From the NCBI GenBank assembly GCA_030595835.1, contig JAUVLG010000023.1, positions 1 through 35,566 on the forward strand: a stretch of 35,566 bases of DNA. Direction: 5' to 3'. The translations under genes were made by a program, and so were the position numbers. Shown here one piece after another: positions 12,186 to 30,492 of the stretch. Position 1 is the stretch's first letter. Each line of letters opens with the position of its first letter. The stretch comes from Candidatus Eiseniibacteriota bacterium (lineage in GTDB: Bacteria; Joyebacterota; Joyebacteria; Joyebacterales; Joyebacteraceae). The notes beneath the pieces are model-generated. The model saw only the letters and a list, made by a program, of their open reading frames with translations, did no database searches and was not told where the DNA came from.

Positions 12186-12636
12186 AATAGAGAACAGGCA
12201 GCGAGTGCTCAAACTGGACACACCCGACATCAGGCGTCTGGTCGGTCTCATTCTGGACGACCACGGCAGCAGCGACGCCGATCTCACCATCGTGTTCGCC
12301 CGTGACGGTTTCGTCAGGGAGCTCAACGCCTCATATCGTGACATCGACCGCACGACCGACGTCCTGGCCTTTGCCACGTGCGACGGAGAGCCTCCCGGTG
12401 TCACGGGAGATCCCGAGGAGATCGAGCACGTCCTCGGGGACGTAGTTATCTCGACGGATAGAGCGATCGCGCAGGCGCCACGTTACAGGCGAACGCCCGA
12501 GCGCGAGATCCTCAAGCTTGTGGCTCACGGCGTGCTGCATCTCGTGGGGCACGACCACGCTACGTCTAGTGAGCGCACGAAGATGAGGAACCTGGAGAAC
12601 AGGTACCTCCGCACCCTCTCGAAGAACAGACAATGA
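12175..12636 (+). CDS. ybeY: Endoribonuclease YbeY
   Basis: A single-strand endoribonuclease for 16S rRNA 3'-end maturation and ribosome quality control. The protein is 153 aa. The zinc site is the family motif HGVLHLVGHDH (three histidines in HxxxHxxxxxH), and the upstream core LNASYRDIDRTTDVLAF is also diagnostic. The start is placed at the ATG at 12175 (MSLRIENRQ), giving the normal length. The frame stays open further upstream through the 15-bp repeat with several ATG or GTG codons, so an N-terminally extended form cannot be excluded. It overlaps pgpH by 11 bases and the next gene by 4 (ATGA). Confidence 0.95.
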   Translation: MSLRIENRQRVLKLDTPDIRRLVGLILDDHGSSDADLTIVFARDGFVRELNASYRDIDRTTDVLAFATCDGEPPGVTGDPEEIEHVLGDVVISTDRAIAQAPRYRRTPEREILKLVAHGVLHLVGHDHATSSERTKMRNLENRYLRTLSKNRQ

Positions 12637-13910
12637 ACTATCTGCTCCCAGCGGGCATCGGATTCGCAGCACTCCTCTACCTCTCGGGCTTCTTCTCGGG
12701 TTCCGAGACGGCCTTCTTTTCCCTTTCTAAGCTCGACCTCGGTGAGATGTTGCCAGGAAGCCGCGTCCGGCGGCTGATGGACAAGCCGGAGAGGCTGCTC
12801 ATAGCTATCCTGGTTGGGAACACGCTCGTTAACGTCGCCGCCGCTTCGCTGGGAGCACTGGCGGCACTGGCGGTGAGCCGCGCCCACGACTACCCGGAGG
12901 GACTGACCATTGCCCTTGAAGTGGGTGTGGTCACGTTCGTGCTCCTGGTGGTCGGCGAGGTCGCTCCCAAGATGTACGCGATGCAGCGGAACATCGCCGT
13001 CGCCCGCAGGAACGCGGGTTTCCTGTCCGTCGTCATGAACGTGCTGCGGCCGGTCGTCAGCGCTCTGGACGTGCTGGCCGGGAAGCTCGGCGGATCTGCG
13101 GCGGGCGAGGAGCGCCCGTTCGTGACTGCCGAGGAGCTCCGCACCATCGTTGCCCTGAGCGAGGAGCGCGGAACGCTGGAGGAAGACGAGCGCGACATGA
13201 TCGACAGCGTGATGGAGTTCGGCGACACGGTCGTCAGAGAGCTGATGATCCCGCGCGTGGACATGGAGTGTTTTGACAACGCGGTGACGGTTGGAGCGGC
13301 CACCGACGGCGTTAAGGAGCTGGGCTTCGCCCGCGTCCCGGTCTACGAAGGAGACATCGACCACATTATTGGGATCCTCTATGCGAAAGACCTGCTGAAG
13401 TTCGACACGGAGACGGACCGCGATCTGCCTATCATCAATATCCTGCGTCCACCTCTCTTCACGCCCGAGAGCAAGAACGCCGGCGAGCTCCTGCGAGAGC
13501 TGCAGCGCAGGCGCACGCACATTGCGATCGTCGTCGACGAGTACGGTGGGACGGCGGGGCTGGTAACGCTCGAGGATCTGATCGAGGAGATAGTCGGCGA
13601 GATACAAGACGAGCACGACCAGGAGGAGAAGCCGCTCCTGACGATCGTCGACAAGCGCACGCTCATCGCGGACGGCATCGTCCGGCTGGACGAACTCGCC
13701 GAGAGCATGGAGCTCACGTTCGAGGGAGAGGGAGTCGAGACGCTGGGTGGCTACCTGATGGAAGCTTTTGGGCGCATTCCGTCCGAGGGCGAGCAGCTCG
13801 AGCGCGACGGCGCCGAGTTTACGATCGAGTCCGTGGTTGAGCAGCGAGTCACCCGCGTCCGCGTCGTGAGAGTCAACCACGACGAATCCGAAGAGTCGGA
13901 GGGTAACTAG
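12633..13910 (+). CDS. CorC/HlyC-type CBS membrane protein, copy 1
   Basis: A 425-aa member of the CNNM/CorC superfamily: a DUF21 membrane domain (about residues 1-190, opening with the [16 protein letters not shown] signature), a CBS pair (about 205-335, including [11 protein letters not shown] and [28 protein letters not shown]), and a C-terminal CorC_HlyC domain (about 345-415). Bacterial CorC/CNNM proteins export Mg2+ or modulate its transport; older names as hemolysins are misleading. In E. coli a CBS protein, YbeX, follows ybeZ-ybeY, so this location is expected. It overlaps ybeY by 4 bases and the next paralog by 1. Confidence 0.92.
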
Positions 13911-15187
13911 TGCTGGTCGTCCTGCTCATAGTTCTCGGGTTCGCCATGTCCGCCTTCTTCTCGGGGGTGGAGACCGCGCTGGTCTCCATCAACTGGATCA
14001 GGCTGGACCACTGGCTCGAAAAGGGGCGCGGGAGCGCCAAGGTGCTCGAGCGCTTCGTTGCCGACCCGCACCGAATGCTGGGAACGACCCTCGTAGGAAA
14101 TAACATCGCGGTCGTCATGACGTCCTCGCTCGTCTCGTGGCGGCTCGCCGATGTCTTCCAAAACTGGTCGAGCGGGCTCGTTGGATTGGTCTCGATACTC
14201 ATCGTCACACCCGCGCTTCTCGTTTTCGGTGAGATAATTCCCAAGGTCATCGGGCGGCGGCACAGCGACGCGATCACACTGAAGGTCGTCCACCCGCTAC
14301 GCATGTTCTACTACCTGCTCTCACCCCTCATCCTCGTGACGACGGGGATGGCCGGCGTCATGCTCAGGCCGTTTGGCATCAGGGCGCAGGAATGGCGCAG
14401 CCGGTTGACGAAGGACCAGCTTCGCCTGTTGCTCACGAGCGAAGGGGAGCGCGCGGGCGCCGTCGACGAACAGGAGACCAGACTGATATCCGGGATCTTC
14501 GAGTTCGGCGAGACGACGATCGGCGAGGTGATGGTCCCGAGGACCGATATCGTCGGGGTCTCACCCGACTCGACCGTGGGGGAGGCCGTCGAGCTGGTGC
14601 GCGCCCACGGCTACTCGCGACTCCCGGTGCTGTCCCCCGACCGAGACCACATCGAGGGTATGGTGCACTCACGAGACCTCCTGGGCATGCCGAGGGACAC
14701 GGGGATAGCGGATCTGGTGCGTGCCGTGCCCTACATGCCCGAGACCAAGACGTGCGACGATCTGTTCCGGGAGCTCCAGGCCAGGCGACAGCACATGGTC
14801 GCGGTCGCGGACGAACACGGTAGTCTCGCCGGCATCGTCACGCTCGAGGATCTGCTCGAAGAGCTGGTTGGGGAGATCGAGGACGAGTACGACGTGCGTA
14901 AGTCGCTCATTCAGAAGATAGACGACGACCTGTTCATGGTGGACGGCAGGACGGAGATCGATGCACTCGAGGACGCGCTCGGCGTCGATCTGCCTGAGGG
15001 TGACTACAACACGGTCGCGGGATTCGTCATCAAGATGCTGGGGAAGATACCGGAGCAGGGAGACGAGGCCGTTGTTGTTGGTCTGGAATTCCGAGTGATA
15101 TCCGCTACCCCGACCAGGGTCGGGAAGATACGTGTGAGGAACAGATGGACGAAACCAAGAGAGACACCGGCGGATCCGAGACAGTAG
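13910..15187 (+). CDS. CorC/HlyC-type CBS membrane protein, copy 2
   Basis: A paralog of the preceding protein with the same length (425 aa) and order: DUF21 (about 1-190, SAFFSGVETALVSINW), a CBS pair (about 200-335, VMVPRTDIVGVSPD and VADEHGSLAGIVTLEDLLEELVGEIEDEYD), and a CorC_HlyC domain (about 345-415). The two copies are clearly diverged, so the duplication is old. The start is a GTG at 13910 whose G is the last base of the upstream TAG. Mg2+ or other divalent-cation efflux or regulation is the likely role. Its 3' end overlaps the DUF502 gene by 43 bases. Confidence 0.92.
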   Translation: MLVVLLIVLGFAMSAFFSGVETALVSINWIRLDHWLEKGRGSAKVLERFVADPHRMLGTTLVGNNIAVVMTSSLVSWRLADVFQNWSSGLVGLVSILIVTPALLVFGEIIPKVIGRRHSDAITLKVVHPLRMFYYLLSPLILVTTGMAGVMLRPFGIRAQEWRSRLTKDQLRLLLTSEGERAGAVDEQETRLISGIFEFGETTIGEVMVPRTDIVGVSPDSTVGEAVELVRAHGYSRLPVLSPDRDHIEGMVHSRDLLGMPRDTGIADLVRAVPYMPETKTCDDLFRELQARRQHMVAVADEHGSLAGIVTLEDLLEELVGEIEDEYDVRKSLIQKIDDDLFMVDGRTEIDALEDALGVDLPEGDYNTVAGFVIKMLGKIPEQGDEAVVVGLEFRVISATPTRVGKIRVRNRWTKPRETPADPRQ

Positions 15188-15819: not shown

Positions 15820-15905
15820 CACGGTGGCGCGGCGTTACCCCCTGCGGTGTTGCGCCCGGGGCACGCCACACTCGCCGAACGCAGAGCAACAAGGACTTGA
15901 GATCA

Positions 15906-17249
15906 GTGGAACGCTACGACCAGAGAATCGCCATCGATACCCTGAGCTCTCCTGAGTCGATCGCGGCCGCGCTGTCCGGGCTTCACCCGGCGGACGTGGC
16001 CGACGCGCTCGGTCGTGCCGGCGTCGACGGAGAGATTCTGACGAGGATCCTGGCCGAGCTCGACACGGAGCTCGCCGCCGAAGTCGTCATCAACCTGGAC
16101 GACCACACACTCGAGGATGTTCTCGATGTTCTTGAACCTCCCGAGATCGCTCAGATAACGAGCGAGCTCGAGTCGGACGATGCGGCCGATGTCGTGGGGC
16201 TTCTGGACGAGGACAAGAAGGCCCACGTCCTCTCACAGCTCGACTCGGACGACCGCAAGGCCGTGGAGGATCTCCTCCAGTACACGGACGAATCCGCGGG
16301 CGGTATCATGGCGTCCGAGCTCGTCTACGTCAACAGCGAGGCGTCGGTAGACGACGCCATCTCGTTGATCAGACTCGCCGCGGACGAGGTCGAGGAGATC
16401 CACAACGTTTACATCACAGACAGGGCGCGGAAGCTCATCGGCGTGCTCCCTCTCGGGACCTTGCTGCTCGCCCGCAAGGGAACACGCGTCGCGGAGATCA
16501 TGGAGCCGGACGTCGTCTTCGTCTCCGCCGAGACGGATCAGGAAGACGTCGCCAAGGTCTTCATGAAGTACGACCTCGTGGCGATTCCGGTGGTGGACGG
16601 CGAAGGGATACTGGTCGGGCGCATCACGGTCGATGACATTATGGATGTCATCCGTGACGAGGCCGACGAAGACATCACGCTCATGGCGGGAACCAGGGAC
16701 GAGGAGATCCACGAGGACTCCACGCTCAAGGTCTCGTGGATACGCCTTCCGTGGCTCGTGATCGGCGCGCTCGGAGGACTGGCCTCGGCCTCGGTCATGA
16801 GTCTCTACAGTTTCTCGCTTGAGAAGGTTCTCGCGCTCGCGTTCTTCATTCCCGTCATCACCGCGATGGGTGGCAACGTCGGGCTTCAGACCTCGACCAT
16901 CATTGTGCGCGGAATGAACGCGGATGGGTGGCTCGAGAGCGACGTCAGGTCTCGACTGCTGCGCGAGTGGAGGATCGCCATCACGAATGCCGTCGTGCTT
17001 GGTGTTGCGGTCTTCCTGATCGTCGGCCTGTGGCTCACGGACTGGGTGCTGGCCGCCATCGTCGGCGGTGCGCTGGGCACCGTGATAGTCGTCGCGGCGA
17101 CCCTCGGGACGATCATGCCGTTCACGCTGCGCCGGCTGGGGGTCGACCCGGCAGTGGCGCAGGGTCCGTTCGTTACAACACTGAACGACGTCATCGGTAT
17201 TCTCATCTACCTCGGACTGGCGACGCTGTTCCTCGACATGCTGAGCTAG
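15906..17249 (+). CDS. mgtE: Magnesium transporter MgtE
   Basis: A Mg2+ channel/transporter of 447 aa. The N-terminal superhelical MgtE_N domain (about 1-130) contains LDSDDRKAVEDLLQYTDESAGGIM, the hallmark junction into the CBS pair (about 135-255). A connecting helix and five membrane segments (about 280-447) follow, with the pore signature GGNVGLQTSTIIVRG. CBS and N domains close the pore at high Mg2+. The GTG at 15906 is preferred because AAGGA lies 10 bases upstream; the TTG at 15897 sits almost on that RBS and would add three residues. It follows DUF502 by 86 bases without a visible promoter. Confidence 0.96.
   Translation: MERYDQRIAIDTLSSPESIAAALSGLHPADVADALGRAGVDGEILTRILAELDTELAAEVVINLDDHTLEDVLDVLEPPEIAQITSELESDDAADVVGLLDEDKKAHVLSQLDSDDRKAVEDLLQYTDESAGGIMASELVYVNSEASVDDAISLIRLAADEVEEIHNVYITDRARKLIGVLPLGTLLLARKGTRVAEIMEPDVVFVSAETDQEDVAKVFMKYDLVAIPVVDGEGILVGRITVDDIMDVIRDEADEDITLMAGTRDEEIHEDSTLKVSWIRLPWLVIGALGGLASASVMSLYSFSLEKVLALAFFIPVITAMGGNVGLQTSTIIVRGMNADGWLESDVRSRLLREWRIAITNAVVLGVAVFLIVGLWLTDWVLAAIVGGALGTVIVVAATLGTIMPFTLRRLGVDPAVAQGPFVTTLNDVIGILIYLGLATLFLDMLS

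Positions 17250-18236: not shown

Positions 18237-18247
<11 letters not shown>
17384..18247 (+). CDS. recO: DNA repair protein RecO
   Basis: RecO loads RecA with RecR and anneals single-strand DNA in the RecFOR pathway. The protein is 287 aa: an N-terminal OB fold ([22 protein letters not shown]...), a helical middle, a four-cysteine zinc site (CVAC and CDNC), and a helical C-terminus ([11 protein letters not shown]-like). Between the zinc site and the last helices there is a Gly/Ser/Thr/Ala-rich insertion of about 30 residues. The start is the ATG at 17384 with GGAGG at 17371-17375; the open frame extending back into mgtE is not used. It overlaps glyQ by 11 bases, as in the widespread recO-glyQ-glyS cluster. 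Confidence 0.94.
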
Positions 18248-19198
<951 letters not shown>

Positions 19199-19199
<1 letters not shown>

Positions 19200-21277
19200 T
19201 GGCACGAGACCTTCTCTTCGAGATAGGGGTGGAGGAGATCCCCGCGTCCTACGTGCTCCCGGCGCTCGCGCAGCTTGCCGAGTCACTCGAGCGTGAGCTC
19301 ACGGGTGCGCGTCTCTCGTTCGAATGCACGCGCACGCTCGCGACGCCGCGTCGGATGACCGTCATCGTTAAGGGTGTCGCTGACGCCCAGACGCGTGAGA
19401 CACGGACCGTCACCGGGCCGCCCGCCAGAATCGCTTTCGGCGACGATGGCGCGCCCACGAAGGCGGCGACCGGGTTTGCGAGATCTCAGGGCGTTGATGT
19501 CGCCGCTCTCACTGTTGTGGGCGACTACGTCCAGGTTGAGGTCACTGACGGGGGAGGACCCGCCGCGAACGTGCTGCCCCGGCTCCTGGCCGCGGCAGTG
19601 GACACGCTGACCTTCCCGAAGACGATGAAGTGGGGGCCCGAGCGGCGCTTCGCGCGACCGATTCGGTGGCTGGTGGCGATGCTCGGCAACGAGGTTGTAG
19701 ACCTTACGTATGCAGGTGTCCGGGCGGGAAATGTCACGCGGGGGCTGCGCGTCTGGTCGCCGGGGCCGCACGAGGTGGCGGGCGCGGACGCGTACGAGGA
19801 GCTGCTGCGTGACAGCTACGTCATCGCCGACCACGAGAAGAGAAGGGACACGATCGCGAACGAAGCTCTGCGTGTCGCCGGCGAGTGTGGAGGCAGACTC
19901 GTGGAGGACCCCGATCTGCTGGAGGAGGTGACGTTTCTCACCGAGTACCCGACCATCTACGCCGGCCGCTTCGACGAGCGCTTCCTGAAGCTCCCAAGAG
20001 ACGTGGTCGTCGCGGCGATGAAGGGCCATCAGAGGTATTTCGCGGTCGAGTCAGATGATGGGACGCTTCTGCCGTACTTCTTGTGTGTGGTCAATGCTCC
20101 CAAGGACAATCATGACATCATCCGTAGGGGCAACGAGCGCGTGCTCGAGTCGAGACTGGACGACGCCGAGTTCTACTGGCAGGAGGACACCGGGAGCTCA
20201 CTCGAGAGCAAGGTCGAGAGGCTCAAGGATGTCGTGTGGCTGGAGGGGGTCGGGTCACTCTACGAGAAGACCGAGCGACTGGAGTCACTCGCGGCGTATG
20301 TCGCCGGAGTCGTAGCACCCGATGCGCTCGACACGGCGGTCCGGGCCGCCCGGTTGGCGAAGGCCGACCTGGTGACCGAGATGGTCAGGGACGGGAAGGA
20401 GTTCACGGAGCTGCAGGGCATCATGGGGCGGGAGTACGCCCTGAAGTCCAGCGAGCCTCGCGAGGTTGCGTCCGCCATCTACGAGCACTACCTGCCCAGG
20501 TTCGCCGGGGACGTCCTGCCGGAGACGCCGGCTGGGACCATCCTGGGCATTGCAGACAAGATCGACTCGATAGTCGGCTGCTTCTCGGTAGGTTTGATAC
20601 CGACAGGCTCTCAAGATCCATATGCCCTGCGACGTCAGGCCATCGGGCTCGTCAGAATAGTAGATGAGGGTGGACTGCCACTCTCGCTGGGCGAATTGGT
20701 CCGGACGGCCGGAGCTGGCTACGGCGTGAAAGATCGCGCGCTTGAGGAACTGGTCGAGAGCGTGCTCTCATTCATAAGGCTCAGGGCGAGGACGCTCTTC
20801 ATCGACGCCGGGCACGCCTACGACTTGGTCGACGCGGTACTGGAAGCGTCGTTCGATTCACTCCTGGGTGTCAGACCACGGCTGACGGCGCTCACGCACT
20901 TCAGAGCGGAGGATGATTTCGAGGGTCTGGTCATTGGCGCCAGGCGCGCGATGAATATCCTCAAGGGGCAGACGCCGGGCGGCTTCGACCCGGGAGCCCT
21001 GGTTGAGCCGGCCTCGCAGGCCCTGAACGAGATGAGAGAAGCGGTCGCGGCGGGCGTCGACTCGGCGATGGCCGGGGGAGATTTCGATTCCGCGGTCCGG
21101 GAACTGCTGAGACTGAGGAAGCCGATCGACTCGTTCTTCGATGACGTGATGGTCATGGTGGACGACCCGAAGCTCAAGGAGGCCAGGCTTGGTCTTCTTG
21201 GGGAAGTGAAGCGACTCTTCATGCGCGTGGCCGATTTCTCCAGGGTTGTGCTCAAGGGAGAAGAGCGGGAGGAATAG
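19199..21277 (+). CDS. glyS: Glycyl-tRNA synthetase beta subunit
   Basis: The beta subunit, which binds tRNA-Gly. The protein is 692 aa, the usual length. It opens with LLFEIGVEEIPASYVLPAL, contains PKTMKWG....FARPIRWLVAML and the HD-like region typical of the subunit, and ends in an anticodon-binding helical domain (KPIDSFFDDVMVMVDD). Start coupling with glyQ (TGATGG) favours equal synthesis. A purine-rich GGGAGGA at its 3' end (21267-21273) acts as RBS for the next gene, which starts 5 bases after the stop, so the phosphohydrolase array seems to belong to the same transcript. Confidence 0.97.
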
Positions 21278-21282
21278 CAGCG

Positions 21283-22659
21283 TTGGCATCAGCGAATCGA
21301 TACGCGACTCAGGCTGCGGGTGCGCTGCCCGAGTCGCCGAGCACGCCGGGGCGGATGACGAGCCGCGCGTTCCGGGTGGGCGCGACGGTTCTACTGTTCT
21401 CCGTGGCGCTGGCGGCGCTCTTCGTCGGGGGCTGCGGCACCGCTCCCGACACCAAGATAGTCATCATCGGAATTGATGGCATGGACTGGTCACTGGCCGA
21501 CCCGCTCATCGAGCAAGGGAAGATGCCGAACCTGGCACGCATTGTCAGCGAGGGCACCCGCGCGGAGCTGCACTCTCTCATGCCACTGCAGAAGTCGCCC
21601 ACCATCTGGACGACGATAGCCACGGGGAAGGGGCCGCGGAAGCACGGCATCAGCGACTTCGTTCGTGGAACCGATGAGCAGCCGCTCTTCAACTCGACCG
21701 GCTGGCGGGCCAGGAGCATATGGGACATCCTCGGGGACAGAGGGTACACGGTCGGTGTCCTGGGTTGGCTGATGACCTGGCCTGTCCAGGAGGTCAACGG
21801 CTACTGCGTGACCGACCGCATCGTGTATACGCCGGAGGACGGCTACAGCGGCATCCCGCATCTGACCTACCCCGCTGAGCTGGAAGAGGAGCTTGCTCCT
21901 CTCCGCGTGTCCTCCGTGGCCACCACCATGGACGACATCGCCGACCTGATGACCGGCGATATCTGGAGGGGCGGGGAAGAGGCCGTCACGTGGGGCGGAG
22001 TGCTCGGTATACGCAGCATCCACGCGAACGACCAGAGCATCCTCAGGATATCGGAGCACCTCCTGAAGTCCCGCGAGCAGCCAGATTTCTACGCGGTCTA
22101 CTTCCTCGGACTGGACCGCTGCTGTCACGCATTCTGGGGACCCATGAGGCCCTACACGGTGGATATCAAGATGGACGAGGGATACAACGCGGCCTTTGAG
22201 AACGCGATCCCCCGGTACTACGAGCGGGTGGATCTGCTCATCGGAGAAGTGCTCGATTCGATCGAGGAGAACTCCACCGTGATCGTGTGCTCCGACCACG
22301 GCTTCCGCGGACCACTCCGGACCAAGGAGGGTCTAAAGCTCGGCATCTCCATGCACCGGGAGCTGGGTGTCCTCGCGGCCATGGGGCCCGGGGTCCGGCG
22401 GGGCGGCACGCTCGCTAATGCAAACGTCCTGGATCTGACGCCGACGATCCTGGCACTCCTGGGCGAGCCCGTGGGGCGCGACATGGACGGCTTCGTCCTG
22501 ACCAACCTGATCGACGAGGGCCATCTGGCCGACCATCCCGTTACATACGTGGACACGTACGAGAGGGACGACGAACCCGAGCAGTCCGAGGAGCCCATCG
22601 AGTCGGCGCTCGATGACGCGATCAGGGAAGAGCTGCGTTCGCTGGGCTACATCGAATAG
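21283..22659 (+). CDS. Secreted alkaline-phosphatase-superfamily phosphohydrolase, array copy 1 (lipoprotein)
   Basis: A lipoprotein of the type I phosphodiesterase/nucleotide pyrophosphatase group (COG3379-like). The two-metal residues are complete: first Asp D65 in IGIDGMDW, the nucleophile position S105 in KSPTIWTTIATGK, H121 in KHGIS, an Asp and His in GLDRCCHAFW, Asp-His in CSDHGF, and a last His in SMHRELG. The lipobox is VGGC with cysteine 51. Two starts are possible: TTG 21283 has the better RBS (GGGAGGA) but gives an odd 24-residue leader, while ATG 21355 gives a normal signal peptide with cysteine at 27. The tail ends in an acidic stretch and LRSLGYIE. The substrate is unknown. Confidence 0.85.
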   Translation: MASANRYATQAAGALPESPSTPGRMTSRAFRVGATVLLFSVALAALFVGGCGTAPDTKIVIIGIDGMDWSLADPLIEQGKMPNLARIVSEGTRAELHSLMPLQKSPTIWTTIATGKGPRKHGISDFVRGTDEQPLFNSTGWRARSIWDILGDRGYTVGVLGWLMTWPVQEVNGYCVTDRIVYTPEDGYSGIPHLTYPAELEEELAPLRVSSVATTMDDIADLMTGDIWRGGEEAVTWGGVLGIRSIHANDQSILRISEHLLKSREQPDFYAVYFLGLDRCCHAFWGPMRPYTVDIKMDEGYNAAFENAIPRYYERVDLLIGEVLDSIEENSTVIVCSDHGFRGPLRTKEGLKLGISMHRELGVLAAMGPGVRRGGTLANANVLDLTPTILALLGEPVGRDMDGFVLTNLIDEGHLADHPVTYVDTYERDDEPEQSEEPIESALDDAIREELRSLGYIE

Positions 22660-22668
22660 GGACGACGC

Positions 22669-23931
22669 ATGAATCTGCAGCGAAGACACGTTCGGTTGTT
22701 CGCGGCCGTGCTGACGGCCGCTCTCATTGCGGGAGTCGTCGCAGGCTGTGGTCAGCGCGGACCGGAAACCGGCGGACGAATCCTCCTGATCGGTATCGAC
22801 TCGGCCGACTGGGACATCATCGGTCCGCTCGTGGAGGAGGAGAAGCTCCCGAACCTGACCGCCCTCGTAGAATCGGGTGTGTCGTGTGACCTTCACTCGC
22901 TCGAGCCCAAGCAGAAGTCCCCCACCATCTGGGCGACGATAGCGACCGGGAAGCTGCCAGATAAACACGGCATCACCGATTTCATGGACCCGCTCACCAA
23001 GAAGATCCTGACGAGCAACGTCCGGACGGCGCGGACCTTCTGGGATATCATCGGCGAGCGCGGCATGACCGTGACCGTCATCGGGTGGCTGGTCAGCTGG
23101 CCGGCCGAGGTCGTCAACGGGTACATGGTCACTGACTACTTCCGCTACTCGCCTAAGCCCGATCGCCCGCTGCCCAAGCACCTGACATATCCCGACGATC
23201 TCCGGGACGAGGTCGAGCTTCTGCGCGTGGTCAGCGAGGACATCACCGAGGAAGATCTGGATCGGTTCATAGATCTTGATGCGGCCATGACCGCCGATGA
23301 AGCGCAGCGGCTTCCGATCGAGCAGATGTTTGTGGAGATGCGGGGGATGAGCGAACTCGAGCAGCTCGCGAACTCCCTGCGTGATATCCTGGCCGGAGAC
23401 CGGACGTTCCTATCGGTTGCTCGGCATCTGATGCGGAACCGCCCGACCGACGTGTCCATCGTGTACCTCCGGGGTGTCGATTCCGCGAGCCACAAGTTCT
23501 GGGCGGCCGCGCACCCCGGTGAAGTGGGCTTCGCGGTGTCGCGGACCGAGTCCAGGGTGTTCGGCTCCACGGTAGCGCGCTACTACGAGTACGCGGACGA
23601 GATGCTTGGCGTTCTCATTGACGAGTTCGGTGACGGCACGGTGATCGTGTGCTCCGACCACGGTTTCGAGGGGCCGAAGCCCGGGCAGACGCCCGGAGGG
23701 ATCAACGATCACGGCCCCATAGGTATCCTCGTGATGTCGGGCGACGCGTTCAAGAACGGCGTTCGGATTCCCGAGCGGAGCGTCCGCGACGTGACACCCA
23801 CGATCCTGGCACTGTGCGGCCTGCCGGTCGGTGACGATATGGACGGCTCCGTTATCGAGGACGCCTTCGAACCCGATTTCCTGCGGAGCCATCCCTTGAG
23901 ACGCGTGCCGACCTACGAACGTACCGAGTAG
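22669..23931 (+). CDS. Secreted alkaline-phosphatase-superfamily phosphohydrolase, array copy 2 (lipoprotein)
   Basis: A 420-aa paralog of the preceding protein with lipobox VAGC. Catalytic and metal residues appear intact: IGIDSADW, KSPTIWATIATGK with the nucleophile-position Ser, KHGIT, GVDSASHKFW, CSDHGF and NDHGPIG. A larger helical insert (about residues 185-250, ITEEDLDRFIDLDAAMTADEAQ...) sits between the two halves of the metal site and distinguishes it from copies 1, 3 and 5. It lacks the acidic LGYI-type tail and ends PTYERTE. The gap to copy 1 is 9 bases, so the two are co-transcribed. The specific inserts suggest different substrates among copies. Confidence 0.85.
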   Translation: MNLQRRHVRLFAAVLTAALIAGVVAGCGQRGPETGGRILLIGIDSADWDIIGPLVEEEKLPNLTALVESGVSCDLHSLEPKQKSPTIWATIATGKLPDKHGITDFMDPLTKKILTSNVRTARTFWDIIGERGMTVTVIGWLVSWPAEVVNGYMVTDYFRYSPKPDRPLPKHLTYPDDLRDEVELLRVVSEDITEEDLDRFIDLDAAMTADEAQRLPIEQMFVEMRGMSELEQLANSLRDILAGDRTFLSVARHLMRNRPTDVSIVYLRGVDSASHKFWAAAHPGEVGFAVSRTESRVFGSTVARYYEYADEMLGVLIDEFGDGTVIVCSDHGFEGPKPGQTPGGINDHGPIGILVMSGDAFKNGVRIPERSVRDVTPTILALCGLPVGDDMDGSVIEDAFEPDFLRSHPLRRVPTYERTE

Positions 23932-24000: not shown

Positions 24001-25296
24001 ATGAAGAAGCTTTCTGCTGTTGCTCTCTTCTGTGCCGCGGCGCTGGTCGCGACCTCGTGCACGCGGCCGTCGATCGAGCCCGTCGAGAGGAAGATCATGG
24101 TCATCGGCATCGACGGCATGGAGTGGGACATCATGGGTCCGCTGCTGGAGGAGGGCCGGCTTCCGACCTTCGCCAGGGTTCTGTCCGAGGGCGCGTGGGG
24201 AGAGCTTCGTTCACTCGACGTCCTGGAGTCGCCCGTCATATGGACCAGCATCGCCACCGGGAAGCTCCCGGAGAAGCACGGCATCATGGGCTTCGCGAAG
24301 AAGCGACCGGCGGGCGGGCAGCTTGTCCCTGTGACATCCAACGTGCGGCGCGTCGAAGCCATCTGGGACATCCTCGGCAGCAAGGGTTGGAGCATCGGGA
24401 TAGTGGGTTGGCTCGCGACCTGGCCGGCTGCGCCTGTGAACGGCTACCTGGTGACGGACTACTTCAACTACGGATGGGCGCCCGAGCAGAACAGCGAGGA
24501 GGAGCGTGTGACCTTCCCGCCTGGGCTCGTCGCGGACATCGAGGACCTCAGGGTCCTTGCGGAAGATGTCGACGACGAGCGTGCGTCCGCACTCATCAAC
24601 GGAGCCGTGCCGGAGGATGGGGTTCTCCGGAAGAGGTTTGACTCACTCAAGGCCTGCATCGCAACTGATGAGACCAGCCATTCCGTGGCGCTCCGCCTGG
24701 CGGACCAGATGCCGGTCGACTTCTACGCTGTCTACCTCAAAGGGATCGACGGCGTGTGCCATCTCTATTGGGTAGACATGATGCCCGAGTCCGGTCCTCC
24801 CATCTCCGATGAGGAGGAGGCGATGTTCAGGGATGTGATCGCCCGCTACTACGAAGAAATGGACGGCGTCCTTGCGGGCTTCATCGAGATGGCCGACGAG
24901 AACACGACGGTGGTCCTGACGTCCGACCATGGGCACTCCGGGCCGAAACCCGCCGGCGACAGCTACCGCTGGGGAATAGCCATGCATGATCCCACGGGCG
25001 TGCTTGCGTTCTGGGGCAAGGACATCGCCGGGGGACAGGAACTGGCGGACGCGAGCGTGCTCGACATCACACCGACGATCCTCGCTCTCTGCGGATTGCC
25101 GGTGGCGGAAGACATGGACGGAAGCGTGCTGACTGAGGCGATCGATCGGGACTTCCTGAGGTCTCATCCCGTCCGGACCATAGAGACCTATGAGCCTGAG
25201 GGTGGGTCCGAGGGTGGCGATGACCGTGAGCCCATAGAATCGCCGATAGACGATGAAGTGCGTGAGCGCCTGCGGGCTTTGGGCTATATTGAGTAG
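24001..25296 (+). CDS. Secreted alkaline-phosphatase-superfamily phosphohydrolase, array copy 3 (lipoprotein)
   Basis: A 431-aa paralog with a short type II signal peptide (lipobox ATSC). Key residues are intact: IGIDGMEW, LESPVIWTSIATGK with the nucleophile-position Ser, KHGIM, GIDGVCHLYW, TSDHGHSG and AMHDPTG. The end is the acidic tail with LRALGYIE, shared with copies 1 and 5. The 69-base gap from copy 2 contains GC-rich inverted repeats and GAGGAGGA upstream of the ATG, but no clear promoter. It is the best-preserved canonical member of the array. Confidence 0.86.
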   Translation: MKKLSAVALFCAAALVATSCTRPSIEPVERKIMVIGIDGMEWDIMGPLLEEGRLPTFARVLSEGAWGELRSLDVLESPVIWTSIATGKLPEKHGIMGFAKKRPAGGQLVPVTSNVRRVEAIWDILGSKGWSIGIVGWLATWPAAPVNGYLVTDYFNYGWAPEQNSEEERVTFPPGLVADIEDLRVLAEDVDDERASALINGAVPEDGVLRKRFDSLKACIATDETSHSVALRLADQMPVDFYAVYLKGIDGVCHLYWVDMMPESGPPISDEEEAMFRDVIARYYEEMDGVLAGFIEMADENTTVVLTSDHGHSGPKPAGDSYRWGIAMHDPTGVLAFWGKDIAGGQELADASVLDITPTILALCGLPVAEDMDGSVLTEAIDRDFLRSHPVRTIETYEPEGGSEGGDDREPIESPIDDEVRERLRALGYIE

Positions 25297-25338: not shown

Positions 25339-26577
25339 ATGAAAGTCGAGAAGATCCTGATTGCGCTCGTCATTGTCGTCCTTGCTGTTACGGCCATCAT
25401 CACAGTGGTCAAAGTGACGGGGGGAGAGGATGGACTTCCCGCCGTCGCCACCCCGGAGGCGAGTGACATGTCCCTCGTGGTGATTGGGATCCAGGGTCTC
25501 GAAGCCTCGATCGTTGAGAGGCTGACGGCCGACGGACGGCTGCCGAATCTGGCCCGGCTCATGGCCGGCGGCGCGACGGGCAGCTTCGAGACGTTGGGGC
25601 GACACGTGGATGCAAGAATCACCTGGACCTCTCTGGTAACCGGAATGCTCCCGGAGAACCAGGGCGTCGGTGGCAAGAAGCTGTCGCACAGGGGCGAGAT
25701 GGTGGACGCTCCGCTCGTGCCGAAGTCGCGCACGGTGGGCACCCTCTGGACCTTACTTGCGGACGCCGGCGAACCTTGCGGCGTACTCGGATGGCCCGGA
25801 ACATGGCCGGTCGAGGAAGTCGACGGCGTCATGGTGGGCCCGCACTCGACGTACGTTCTCGAGCGGAAGCACAGGGGCGCACAAACCGATGCCATCCACC
25901 CGCCCGCGCTGTACGAGCGACTCGATCCACTGATGCTCGACCAGACGAATTTCACCCGTCGTGACCTCTCTGGTCTCGTCAACCTCGACTCGGCGCTGGG
26001 TCTTGAATCCCTGATCGGCCAGAACTACATCGTGCTGGCCACCGCCTGCGCGGCCGACAGATCCATGGTGGACGTGGCCACGGCGCTCGCGACCGAAGGT
26101 AGCGTTCGCAATCTCTTCGTGTGTCTCGCGGGCACGGACGCGGTCAGCCAGCGCTTCTGGCACTACATGGAGACGGAGGCCATCGAAAGGCTGGAGGTCG
26201 GCGAGAGCGAGCGTCGCCTGCTCCAGGGTCAGATAGAGGCCCTCGGAGAGACCGTGGAGCGCTACTACGACCACGTTGACGAACTGGTCGAGGAGCTGGC
26301 CGGGTTCGCCAGCGACGGCGGCACGGTGGTCGTCATCACCGATCATGGCTACAGGGGCATACCCATCGATGCCGCCGGCATGCCCATGGTGGGTACCAAC
26401 ATGCACAGTGAGGACGGACTGTGGATCGCTTCCGGCCCGAGGGTGAAGGCGGGCGCGACCGCCAGCCACGGGAAGCTCATTGACGTCGCTCCGACCATCA
26501 TGGCCGCAGCCGGCGTTGAGGCGCCCGCGCAGCTCGACGGAGAAGCGCACGAAGAGATCATCGTACTCCGGAGGTGA
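25339..26577 (+). CDS. Degenerate alkaline-phosphatase-superfamily protein, array copy 4 (probable pseudoenzyme)
   Basis: A 412-aa paralog that aligns without gaps to copy 1 across the N-terminal active-site region but has lost key residues. The first metal Asp is Gln52 (IGIQGLEA), the nucleophile-position Ser is Ala92 (DARITWTSLVTG), the KHGI His is Gln108, and the His of the D..xH metal motif is Gln271 (GTDAVSQRFW). Asp-His in TDHGYRG and the last His in NMHSEDG remain. There is no lipobox; the N-terminus is a hydrophobic anchor or cleavable signal. It also lacks the LGYI tail. The reading frame is intact, so selection seems to keep the fold. The likely role is binding or regulation rather than hydrolysis. 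The RBS is AAGGAG. Confidence 0.85.
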   Translation: MKVEKILIALVIVVLAVTAIITVVKVTGGEDGLPAVATPEASDMSLVVIGIQGLEASIVERLTADGRLPNLARLMAGGATGSFETLGRHVDARITWTSLVTGMLPENQGVGGKKLSHRGEMVDAPLVPKSRTVGTLWTLLADAGEPCGVLGWPGTWPVEEVDGVMVGPHSTYVLERKHRGAQTDAIHPPALYERLDPLMLDQTNFTRRDLSGLVNLDSALGLESLIGQNYIVLATACAADRSMVDVATALATEGSVRNLFVCLAGTDAVSQRFWHYMETEAIERLEVGESERRLLQGQIEALGETVERYYDHVDELVEELAGFASDGGTVVVITDHGYRGIPIDAAGMPMVGTNMHSEDGLWIASGPRVKAGATASHGKLIDVAPTIMAAAGVEAPAQLDGEAHEEIIVLRR

Positions 26578-26612
26578 TTGACCCGCCCAGCGTTCACTGG
26601 AGGAAGGCACAC

Positions 26613-27968: not shown

Positions 27969-28017
27969 CTCGCATCCGTGCCGGCCCATACGTTGTCAGC
28001 CTCCCAGGGTGCTCTTC

Positions 28018-30492
28018 ATGACGCGCAAGTCCAGGAAATCCAACCCCCGCACCAAGCGCCCAACAGAGGTCTCTCGCGCTACCGGTGCCTCCGGGACATC
28101 CGACACGGCGACAGACGCGCCCGGCGCCCGTACGGGCATCCGCGGTCTGACCAGCAGGCCGTGGTTCTGGCCGGTGGTGATATTCGTCGTCGCCTTCCTT
28201 CTCAGGACCATCTACATCTCTCAGGTGAGGTACACGCCCTTCTTCCAGACGCTGGGCTTGGACGCGAAGTTCTACGACCAGTGGGCAAGGGACATTGCCG
28301 GCGGAACCGCCGAGCGCGGCGCATTCTTCATGACCCCGCTTTACTCGTACTTCCTGGCGACCGTGTACAGGCTGTTCGGCAGAGATCTTCTGCTCGTAAG
28401 GATGATCCAGGCCGGGCTGGGTGCGGGGACTGCGTCGCTCATCTACCTCGTGGGACGCGACGTTTTTGACAAGAGGGTCGGTCTGCTTGCCGGCCTGCTC
28501 ACCGCGAGCTACGGCGCTCTCATTTTCTACGATTGCTCCGTGCTGCTCACTCCGCTCCTCGTCTTCCTGAACGTGCTCGCCGTGTACCTGCTGCTCAGGG
28601 CCGATTCGTCCAGGAGGCCCATCTACTGTGTGGCCGCAGGCGCCGTCCTGGGTCTGGCCGCCGTAGGAAGGGCCGCAGCGCTCCTGTCGGCAGCCGCGGC
28701 CGTCCTCTGGATGTGGCACTCCGCACGGGCGGGCGCCGGGCGCAAGGCCACGGTGTCTTCCGATTCCGACGGCGGGCGAAGTCGCGGCGGCGAACGGTCG
28801 GCCAGGCGCCCCGCGGCGCTTCGGGGCGCGGCGCTCGTCGTCCTTGGGCTGGTGCTCGTGGTCGGTCCGGTGACGCTTCGAAACTACGTGGTGGAGCGCG
28901 ATTTCGTCCTGGTGACCTCGAACGGTGGCCTCAACTTCTTTATCGGCAACGGCGAGGGCGCGACCGGCGGCTACGCTAAGCCCGCGGGACTGGACATTGC
29001 CACCGACCTTTATGGAAAGGCGCTCGCGGAAGAGGCGCTCGGACGTGAGCTCAAACCCTCGGAGGTCTCCGACTACTGGTACGCCCGCGGTTGGGAGGAC
29101 ATAAGGACTCGCCCCGGGCAGTGGAGCAAGCTGATGGTTCGGAAGCTCGCGTTCGTCATGAGTTCTTACGAGCTGCCGCAGCTGGAGAACTACGACTTCC
29201 AGAAACGCTACTCGGCGCTCCTGGCACTGCCTCTCCCGGGGTTCGCCGTCCTTGCTCCTCTTGGACTTCTGGGGCTGGGTCTCACGTTCCGGCGGAGGCG
29301 GCCCAGGCTGTTGGCTCTGTACTTCTCCGTGTATCTGCTGTCGATCGTTGCCTTCTTCGTGGTGGCGAGGTACAGGCTACCCGTGGTACCCCTCCTGATC
29401 GTGCTGGCCTCCTATGCCGCCGTGGAGCTCGCCCGGCGGGTCCAGGCGCGGGAGTTCGCAGCGCTGGTGGTCCCGGTCGTGGCACTTGGGGTTCTCCTGT
29501 ATGTCGTCAATGCCAATCACTACGGTGTCAATCGGGAATCGGGGTTCGGTCAGCCGCACTTCCGATTGGGGATCATCTACTCGGAGCGAGGGATGACGGA
29601 GGAAGCCGTCGCCGAGTACGAGATGGCGATCAGGCTGGATCCGGAGTACCAGAAGAGCTACCTGAATCTAGGTTCAGTTCTCTCGGTGGCCGGGCGGACC
29701 GACGAGGCGATGGCGGCGTTCAGAAACGCGCTGAGGGTGAATCCGGGATACGTGGCTGCGCGGATCAACCTTGCCATGCTGCTTGAGCGGTCTGAGGACT
29801 ACGATCGTGCGCTTGCCCACGTGGACACGGTTCTGGGTTGGGACGGGCGAAATGCGACTGCTCTCAAGGAACGGGGTGTCATCCTCTATCGGGCCGGAAG
29901 TCCGGGCGAAGCGGAGGAATGGCTCACTGAGGCCCTGAGATGGGACACGACGGGCGCGGAGAGGGCCGAGATCGAGTTCTACCTGGCGCTGCTGGGTGGG
30001 GCGACGGGGCGAGAGATCCCGCCTGGCGCGGTCACCGCCATCGCGCGCGCCGATACACTGGCGCAGACCGGGCGCGTAGTCGAGGCCCTTGACGTTCTTG
30101 CGGAGGCCGGACGGCTTGCCCCCCACTCGGGCGAGCCGCTCAGACAGCAAGCGCTCCTCAAGCGGCACATGGGTCTTCTGGACGAGGCACTGGAGCTCAT
30201 GGTGGGGGCGCTACGCCTTGACCCGGTTCTTGACAGCGGTCACTACATGTACGGGGTCTTCCTCAACGAGGCCGGCCGCCACGACGAGGCCCTTCTCGAG
30301 TACGATGCCGAGCTCAGAATCCGTTCTGATTTCGCGCCGGCACATCTAAATCTCGCTCTGACCTACTATTTCCACGCGGGGAATCCGAATCTCGGGGCGT
30401 TCCACTACCGGCAGCATCTGGCCCTCGGCGGCGCACGGGTTGAGGCGCTGGAATCGCTCTTGAGAGATCTGGAATCATCGAATAGCCCTTAG
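28018..30492 (+). CDS. GT-C-like membrane glycosyltransferase with C-terminal TPR repeats
   Basis: An 824-aa protein. A basic Ser/Thr-rich N-terminus is followed by about 10 membrane helices (about residues 45-500). The first extracytoplasmic loop carries the acidic motif LGLDAKFYDQWARDIA, in the place where PMT/ArnT-type GT-C enzymes keep their catalytic Asp/Glu. About eight TPR units follow (about 510-815; for example YLNLGSVLSVAGRTDEAMAAFRNALRVNP). Such enzymes usually transfer sugars from polyprenyl-phosphate donors to surface targets. The start is the ATG at 28018, with AGGGTG 6 bases upstream; a GTG at 28009 is also in frame. The location after the phosphohydrolase array suggests shared envelope glycan or lipid chemistry, which is an inference. 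The acceptor is unknown. Confidence 0.8.
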   Translation: MTRKSRKSNPRTKRPTEVSRATGASGTSDTATDAPGARTGIRGLTSRPWFWPVVIFVVAFLLRTIYISQVRYTPFFQTLGLDAKFYDQWARDIAGGTAERGAFFMTPLYSYFLATVYRLFGRDLLLVRMIQAGLGAGTASLIYLVGRDVFDKRVGLLAGLLTASYGALIFYDCSVLLTPLLVFLNVLAVYLLLRADSSRRPIYCVAAGAVLGLAAVGRAAALLSAAAAVLWMWHSARAGAGRKATVSSDSDGGRSRGGERSARRPAALRGAALVVLGLVLVVGPVTLRNYVVERDFVLVTSNGGLNFFIGNGEGATGGYAKPAGLDIATDLYGKALAEEALGRELKPSEVSDYWYARGWEDIRTRPGQWSKLMVRKLAFVMSSYELPQLENYDFQKRYSALLALPLPGFAVLAPLGLLGLGLTFRRRRPRLLALYFSVYLLSIVAFFVVARYRLPVVPLLIVLASYAAVELARRVQAREFAALVVPVVALGVLLYVVNANHYGVNRESGFGQPHFRLGIIYSERGMTEEAVAEYEMAIRLDPEYQKSYLNLGSVLSVAGRTDEAMAAFRNALRVNPGYVAARINLAMLLERSEDYDRALAHVDTVLGWDGRNATALKERGVILYRAGSPGEAEEWLTEALRWDTTGAERAEIEFYLALLGGATGREIPPGAVTAIARADTLAQTGRVVEALDVLAEAGRLAPHSGEPLRQQALLKRHMGLLDEALELMVGALRLDPVLDSGHYMYGVFLNEAGRHDEALLEYDAELRIRSDFAPAHLNLALTYYFHAGNPNLGAFHYRQHLALGGARVEALESLLRDLESSNSP

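Follow-up and report, generated by a model that had tools for sequence, protein, structure and literature searches.

What becomes of a phosphodiesterase-like protein that has lost its cutting residues and is kept beside copies that still have them? This question is raised by one gene in the stretch of DNA analysed here (the window; 35,566 bases), which is part of a 2.85-Mb draft genome. Judging from its relatives, the genome appears to group with Candidatus Effluviviacota, a phylum described from marine seeps (PMC11323493). The window contains a same-strand array of five open reading frames (ORFs) of the type I phosphodiesterase family PF01663, denoted c1 to c5. A preliminary description had claimed that four active-site residues are replaced in c4, and had suggested that this copy is probably retained for a non-catalytic function, perhaps as a partner of its neighbours that binds substrate or regulates them. 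The array and its borders are as follows.

18237..21277, + strand: glyQ and glyS (named from sequence), the conserved upstream border of the array
21283..22659, + strand: c1, catalytically intact paralog (by residues), with lipobox and LRSLGYIE tail; the true start is perhaps downstream of the TTG
22669..23931, + strand: c2, catalytically intact paralog (by residues), with lipobox and no tail
24001..25296, + strand: c3, catalytically intact paralog (by residues), with lipobox and LRALGYIE tail
25339..26577, + strand: c4, putative pseudoenzyme of the AP superfamily (PF01663, E=1.3e-12), 412 aa
26574..27968, + strand: c5, catalytically intact paralog (by residues), hydrophobic N-terminus without lipobox, LRSLGYID tail; start perhaps downstream
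28009..30492, + strand: PMT_2 (GT-C) membrane glycosyltransferase-like protein with TPR repeats, 827 aa, downstream of the array

The GTG start of c5 overlaps the c4 stop at 26574-26582, and GGAGGTGAT in those bases resembles a ribosome-binding site. Because GGAGGTGAT can also be read in this way, the true start of c5, and with it translational coupling of c4 and c5, is uncertain. Elsewhere in the window, two adjacent CNNM/CorC-like CBS-domain transporter genes (12633-15187) are followed by an mgtE-like gene (15897-17249), all named from sequence.

Active-site residues of c4

The c4 ORF begins with an ATG behind GAAGGAG and runs for 412 codons to a TGA with 0 internal stops; an intact frame of this length had been described. 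The PF01663 profile scored 48.4 bits against a curated cut-off of 23 and was the sole Pfam match at E 0.01. No NCBIfam model reached its cut-off, and a search of the PDB with the single c4 sequence returned nothing below E 0.049.

The replaced positions are encoded by CAG (Q52), GCA (A92), CAG (Q108), and CAG (Q271). In an alignment of the five copies (A1), they occupy the columns of the GIDG Asp, the SPTIW Ser, the KHG His, and the DxxxH His, where c1, c2, c3, and c5 retain Asp, Ser, His, and His, respectively. The alignment of c1 and c4, which share 28% identity, is free of gaps around the nucleophile. We then aligned a profile of c4 orthologs to the Xanthomonas enzyme XacNPP (2gsn) with HMMER. 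Position 52 was matched to the Asp of SIDGL, the nucleophile position to the Thr of LTFPNH, and Q108 to the second His of PDHHGI. The best PDB match of the profile was 7mw8 (XacNPP with Ala at that Thr; E 1.9e-5), and 2gsn was matched at E 1.1e-4. Q271 lies outside the HMMER alignment to XacNPP and is assigned from the gap-free DxxxH/DxxxQ spacing in A1. All four substitutions, the gap-free alignment near the active site, and the intact residues of the other four copies were therefore confirmed as first described. A different alignment could have placed other residues at these sites, but misalignment was ruled out for positions 52, 92, and 108 by the independent XacNPP profile. A migrated nucleophile was also rejected: positions 91, 92, 93, and 95 have no conserved hydroxyl residue, and W96 is invariant.

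Other metal ligands (D267, D335, H336, and H356) are kept in c4, a point on which the preliminary description had laid no stress. The site positions of c4, with the residues found in 19 ortholog rows, are as follows.

25492..25494, + strand: Q52, position of the first metal Asp (M2); Glu in 12/19, Gln in 6/19, Lys in 1/19
25612..25614, + strand: A92, nucleophile position, Ser in the neighbours; Ser/Thr in 0/19
25660..25662, + strand: Q108, position of the KHG His; Gln in 18/19
26137..26139, + strand: D267, M1 Asp, kept; Asp in 15/19
26149..26151, + strand: Q271, M1 His position; Gln in 19/19
26341..26346, + strand: D335-H336, M2 Asp and His of TDHG, kept; Asp in 17/19, His in 19/19
26404..26406, + strand: H356, M1 His, kept; His in 18/19

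The zinc ligands reported for NPP3 are D168, T206, D326, H330, D373, H374, and H483 (PMC6052110). Those reported for SPAP are Asp300, His304, and His491 at M1, and Asp49, Thr89, Asp345, and His346 at M2 (PMC3145672). Both enzymes have their Thr nucleophile at the place of A92 in c4 (PMC6052110, PMC3145672). Based on the order and spacing of these ligands, the residues lost from c4 are the nucleophile, one M1 His, and one M2 Asp. Instead of a Ser or Thr nucleophile on M2, all 19 orthologs carry A, P, M, G, Q, L, or V. To our knowledge, a nucleophile of the Ser/Thr type is general across the superfamily. The M1 set of Asp, His, and His is broken at its first His (Gln in every row), and the M2 set of Asp, Asp, and His at its first Asp (Q, E, or K in every row). 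By these residues, c4 lacks the defining features of an active PF01663 member.

Distribution of c4 and conservation of the array

We searched 61 genomes for c4 and found a strong match in all five genomes of the same genus (77-80% identity) and in all 14 of the same family, 13 of them at 45-52% identity. In genome G015, c4 was recovered as two pieces on two contigs, with 56% and 43% identity. A profile search of the phylum detected c4 in 20 out of 20 genomes, at the same place in the array.

The c4 copies and their neighbours (c1, c2, c3, c5, and a further intact copy, X) belong to the same family and the same operon-like array, and differ in their catalytic residues. The full set (D, S, H, D, H, D, H, H) was found in none of the 19 c4 copies covering all eight site positions, as compared with 76 of 77 rows of c1, c2, c3, X, and c5. 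The latter count covers array copies on the fetched stretches (the window and L038-L057), with three rows gapped at a key position set aside. Fragments shorter than 180 aa were left out of the array-copy alignment. Alignment A2 holds 19 of the 20 genomes, the split c4 of G015 being omitted, and alignments A3 (42 rows) and A4 (30 rows) hold a chosen part of the listed ORFs without L074. The loss of residues in c4 is more than chance. The lone exception among the 77 neighbouring rows is c1 of genome G006 (L043 12164-14422, - strand), an independent dead copy in which the Ser is replaced by V, the M1 Asp by L, and SDHG by SSVG; it has no LGYI tail.

The residues that replaced the nucleophile varied among orthologs (P in 8, A in 5, Q in 2, and M, G, L, and V in 1 each; n=19). 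At position 52, the six copies with Gln all come from the window's genus, while 12 of the 19 have Glu and one has Lys. The claimed change of the first Asp to Gln thus holds within the genus and fails for the family at large, and because it is genus-specific, what the whole family has lost is the nucleophile and the DxxxH His. Where position 52 is Glu (12 of 19 copies), some metal binding may survive. Orthologs with the intact D, S, and H residues were sought as counter-evidence and none was found among the 19. Frameshifts were likewise absent from the five same-genus orthologs, and the other orthologs read have 0 internal stops. A TGA flagged in the c4 of G019 is its terminal stop (ORF end 3066), and the c4 of G011 reaches the contig end at residue 390.

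The gene order is recO, glyQ, glyS, c1, c2, c3, (X), c4, c5, and the PMT_2-TPR gene as far as the contigs extend, with recO, glyQ, and glyS named from sequence across genomes. X is missing in the window's genus and in G006, G007, G012, and G015. We did not find c2 in G010, c3 in G011, or c5 in G013, G016, and G019; in these last three, c4 directly precedes the PMT_2-TPR gene. G012 has two c5 copies. The PMT_2-TPR gene adjoins the array in 19 of the 20 genomes. In G011, the array stops at the contig end after c4, and the PMT_2-TPR gene lies on another contig, with an extra PF01663 copy just before it. The c5 of G003 (L040 4036-5322, - strand) ends early, its C-terminal part and tail missing through a frameshift or an assembly error.

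Dead copies resembling c4 were also sought in another phylum. The c4 profile was matched at E<=1e-30 in 42 of 80 genomes from the phylum of G044, and the best ten loci of these were read (L089-L098). All ten were intact, with an LGYI or LGYV tail, and c4-like dead copies were rejected for these ten loci.

Selection and phylogeny

Within the genus, the dN/dS of c4 was 0.308 (bootstrap 0.254-0.373; 6 genomes), well below 1, and that of the other four copies was 0.153-0.246 (4 to 6 genomes). The c4 value is the highest of the five, and its interval overlaps only that of c1 (0.193-0.317). This suggests that some relaxation of c4 is possible. Over 28 genome pairs, the mean tree distance of c4 (1.47) was close to that of c1 (1.43) and c5 (1.56), with 1.06 for c2 and 1.21 for c3.

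We constructed quick or FastTree trees of the array copies. With the active-site columns masked, the c4 copies formed one clade with support 100 among the intact copies, both with 19 and with 11 c4 rows. The c4 stem was the longest of the array orthogroups, at 0.81 in the 19-row tree, from which rows shorter than 300 aa, including both G015 pieces, were omitted, and at 1.35 in the 11-row tree with outgroup, which covers 11 of the 20 genomes. The longest stem combined with a family divergence within the range of the neighbours is consistent with rapid early change that later gave way to constraint. Rooting of the 11-genome tree is weak since one of the three outgroup rows was placed inside the array copies, and its placement of X as the sister of c4 is also weak (support 84).

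Conservation within c4 was uneven. Mean column identity was 0.65 for the 75 positions that lie up to six residues from one of the eight site residues, and 0.51 for the other 290, among which the eight site residues themselves were counted. A difference of this size was matched by 3 of 364 circular shifts. This comparison covers c4 only.

Taken together, c4 is under selection, evolving faster than its neighbours yet far from neutrally. The intact frames, the dN/dS of 0.31, and a family-wide divergence within the range of the catalytic neighbours indicate that it is selected and not decaying. The proposed retention is thus supported, by the frames, by presence in 20 of 20 genomes, and by dN/dS.

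Predicted fold, likely membrane anchor, and tails

The structure of c4 was predicted with AlphaFold2 (pLDDT 91) and compared by VIA-align. Its model matched PafA with Z 25.1 (311 residues, 3.8 A) and the NPP entries among the matches listed with Z 22.4-23.9, at 13-18% sequence identity. By profile and modelled fold, c4 is an AP-superfamily member of the PF01663/NPP type. The c5 model (pLDDT 85.5) had its best Z, 28.2, to ENPP1. The NPP family (Xanthomonas NPP, ENPP1-7) resembles c4 in predicted fold, in site geometry, and in the profile alignment to XacNPP. However, its members have the Thr/Ser nucleophile and both M1 His residues, whereas c4 is without the nucleophile and one M1 His. They also have the first M2 acidic residue, which is missing from c4 in the window's genus.

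The c4 model begins with a putative anchor.

25342..25419, + strand: N-terminal hydrophobic helix of c4, residues 2-27, likely membrane anchor, with no lipobox Cys

All 20 readable c4 N-termini begin with a hydrophobic stretch, and none has a lipobox. Among c1, c2, c3, and X, the lipobox pattern was found in 51 of 58 readable rows and the remaining seven have a Cys there, so that these copies are probably mostly lipoproteins. The c5 copies were mixed (3/15 match). An LGYI-type C-terminal tail ends 13 of 14 c1, 17 of 17 c3, 11 of 11 X, and 14 of 15 c5 copies in the rows printed, and was found in 0 of 16 c2 and 0 of 20 c4 copies, two of the c4 rows being cut by contig ends. The LRSLGYI-type tail is very conserved on most catalytic copies, including the intact relatives from the other phylum (L089-L098).

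A second nucleophile-less paralog

A second PF01663 protein without the nucleophile, denoted psi2, was found outside the array.

G000:C156:8246-9538, - strand: psi2, second nucleophile-less PF01663 protein (L085 4241-5539; orthologs L104-L120)

In the window's genome, psi2 is flanked by etf genes and uvrA. Copies were detected in 17 of the 20 genomes, among them all 13 of the better ones. The nucleophile position is Pro in all 17. The second M2 Asp (of DHG) is lost in 17 of 17 and the M2 His in 16 of 17, while the first M2 Asp (17/17), the M1 Asp (17/17), and the M1 His (16/17) are kept. The N-terminus is hydrophobic in the five rows aligned. psi2 thus shares with c4 the phylum, the dead nucleophile position, and the hydrophobic N-terminus. 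It differs in its separate locus and in its lost metal ligands, which are nearly the reverse of those lost by c4. In a tree of 8 of the 20 genomes, with c1 of G006 and P0015 dropped, c4 and psi2 formed one clade (SH-aLRT 91) on stems of 0.89 and 1.84, respectively. This grouping may be due to long-branch attraction.

Two further PF01663 paralogs of the window's genome, both intact (L083 6592-10925), lie in a cluster of glycosyltransferase genes, along with a heptosyltransferase-family gene and a polysaccharide-synthesis-like gene just below the Pfam cut-off. One of these two paralogs lies behind an extra N-terminal stretch that looks membrane-spanning. A gene for LpxC is present in the same genome.

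Discussion

The loss of the cutting residues combined with retention in all relatives examined suggests that c4 now binds or regulates and no longer cuts. In the reading we favour, to which we give about an even chance, c4 is a selected, membrane-anchored, non-cleaving subunit for binding, delivery, scaffolding, or regulation in surface-glycan assembly. It would be a pseudoenzyme of the NPP branch, held in the inner membrane by its one N-terminal helix, with the globular domain in the periplasm. Its origin would be a single duplication of an intact array copy, older than the split of the phylum's sampled genomes. In the stem lineage it would have shed the nucleophile and the M1 His, with conservation since. 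The old pocket most likely still binds the phosphorylated substrate or product of the array, perhaps with a residual metal, and would not cleave it. That a nucleophile-less copy can serve as a binding protein is indicated by the T206A variant of NPP3, which binds AMPNPP, Ap4A, and UDPGlcNAc in crystals (PMC6052110). The candidate partners of c4 would be the PMT_2-TPR glycosyltransferase and the catalytic lipoproteins. A role in the assembly of envelope glycans is suggested by the paralogs among glycosyltransferase genes and by LpxC. The conserved neighbourhood may, however, reflect shared ancestry of the array instead of a physical complex.

Other explanations of c4 were weighed against this one. 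It could still be an enzyme with altered chemistry, its metal site remodelled and perhaps mononuclear, with water or another nucleophile activated there. A Glu near the metal is usual in LtaS, EptA, and MCR-1 (PMC7576196). In c4, the Glu or Gln at position 52 and D267, D335, H336, and H356 are largely retained, and conservation is higher around the site than in the rest of the protein. We take the Glu of the LtaS, EptA, and MCR-1 sites to stand at the same position as c4 position 52. Yet what replaces the nucleophile, a Thr in NPP3 and SPAP (PMC6052110, PMC3145672), is not conserved, none of the 19 orthologs has a hydroxyl residue there, and the M1 His is always Gln; we consider such an enzyme unlikely.

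We put at a similarly low level the probability that the selected role of c4, for example as a structural envelope protein, is unrelated to its neighbours, and that its position is a legacy of tandem duplication. Tandem duplication does account for the position, according to the trees, and c4 has neither the lipobox of c1, c2, c3, and X nor the LGYI tail of c1, c3, X, and c5. On the other hand, the position is kept in 20 of 20 genomes, while c2, c3, X, and c5 are each missing somewhere. Decay was ruled out by the frames, the retention, and dN/dS, and both a decaying pseudogene and an assembly artefact are, in our view, most improbable. Its dN/dS is the highest of the five copies, but it is well below 1; the orthologs read are free of internal stops at 77-80% identity in the genus and 44-52% in other genera, and the matches include isolates of several sampling series.

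The favoured reading, a non-cleaving subunit at the membrane, has a parallel in YejM/PbgA/LapC of enterobacteria, a membrane-anchored periplasmic domain of AP/sulfatase fold that regulates envelope glycolipid synthesis. YejM/PbgA has been described as an LPS-sensing pseudo-hydrolase whose target is the TPR protein LapB (PMC13125744, PMC9356133). Its status as a pseudoenzyme is disputed because Thr302 is kept and a Mg-dependent phosphatase activity has been reported (PMC7576196). YejM has an N-terminal membrane domain of five helices, whereas the c4 model has one helix. Unlike YejM, c4 matches the NPP-type family PF01663, adjoins catalytic paralogs, and has no residue resembling Thr302. YejM was not among the 50 structure matches listed for the c4 model. 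YejM/PbgA is the closest analogue of c4 in logic, not in family. In our searches of the open-licence literature, YejM/PbgA alone surfaced for pseudoenzymes of the superfamily, and only DNA primase work, by title, for COG3379; the remaining papers listed dealt with lignocellulose enzymes, by title, or with other enzyme families. The 2024 paper about the phylum (PMC11323493) has, by a term search of its main text, no word beginning with phosphatase or phosphodiesterase.

A broader and rather doubtful possibility is that envelope assembly is controlled by c4 and psi2, two conserved nucleophile-less membrane-anchored proteins, acting in the periplasm as receptors or carriers of phospho-glycans or phospholipids, and that YejM-like regulation arose independently in the NPP branch. 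Part of this reading is that the halves of the bimetal site given up by the two proteins are nearly opposite.

A dead copy is kept beside living paralogs in all 20 genomes sampled from the phylum, and a second dead paralog is found elsewhere. With their living paralogs, c4 and psi2 form natural matched pairs that may reveal what this fold does once cutting stops. The c4 family may thereby offer a handle on envelope assembly in uncultured bacteria.
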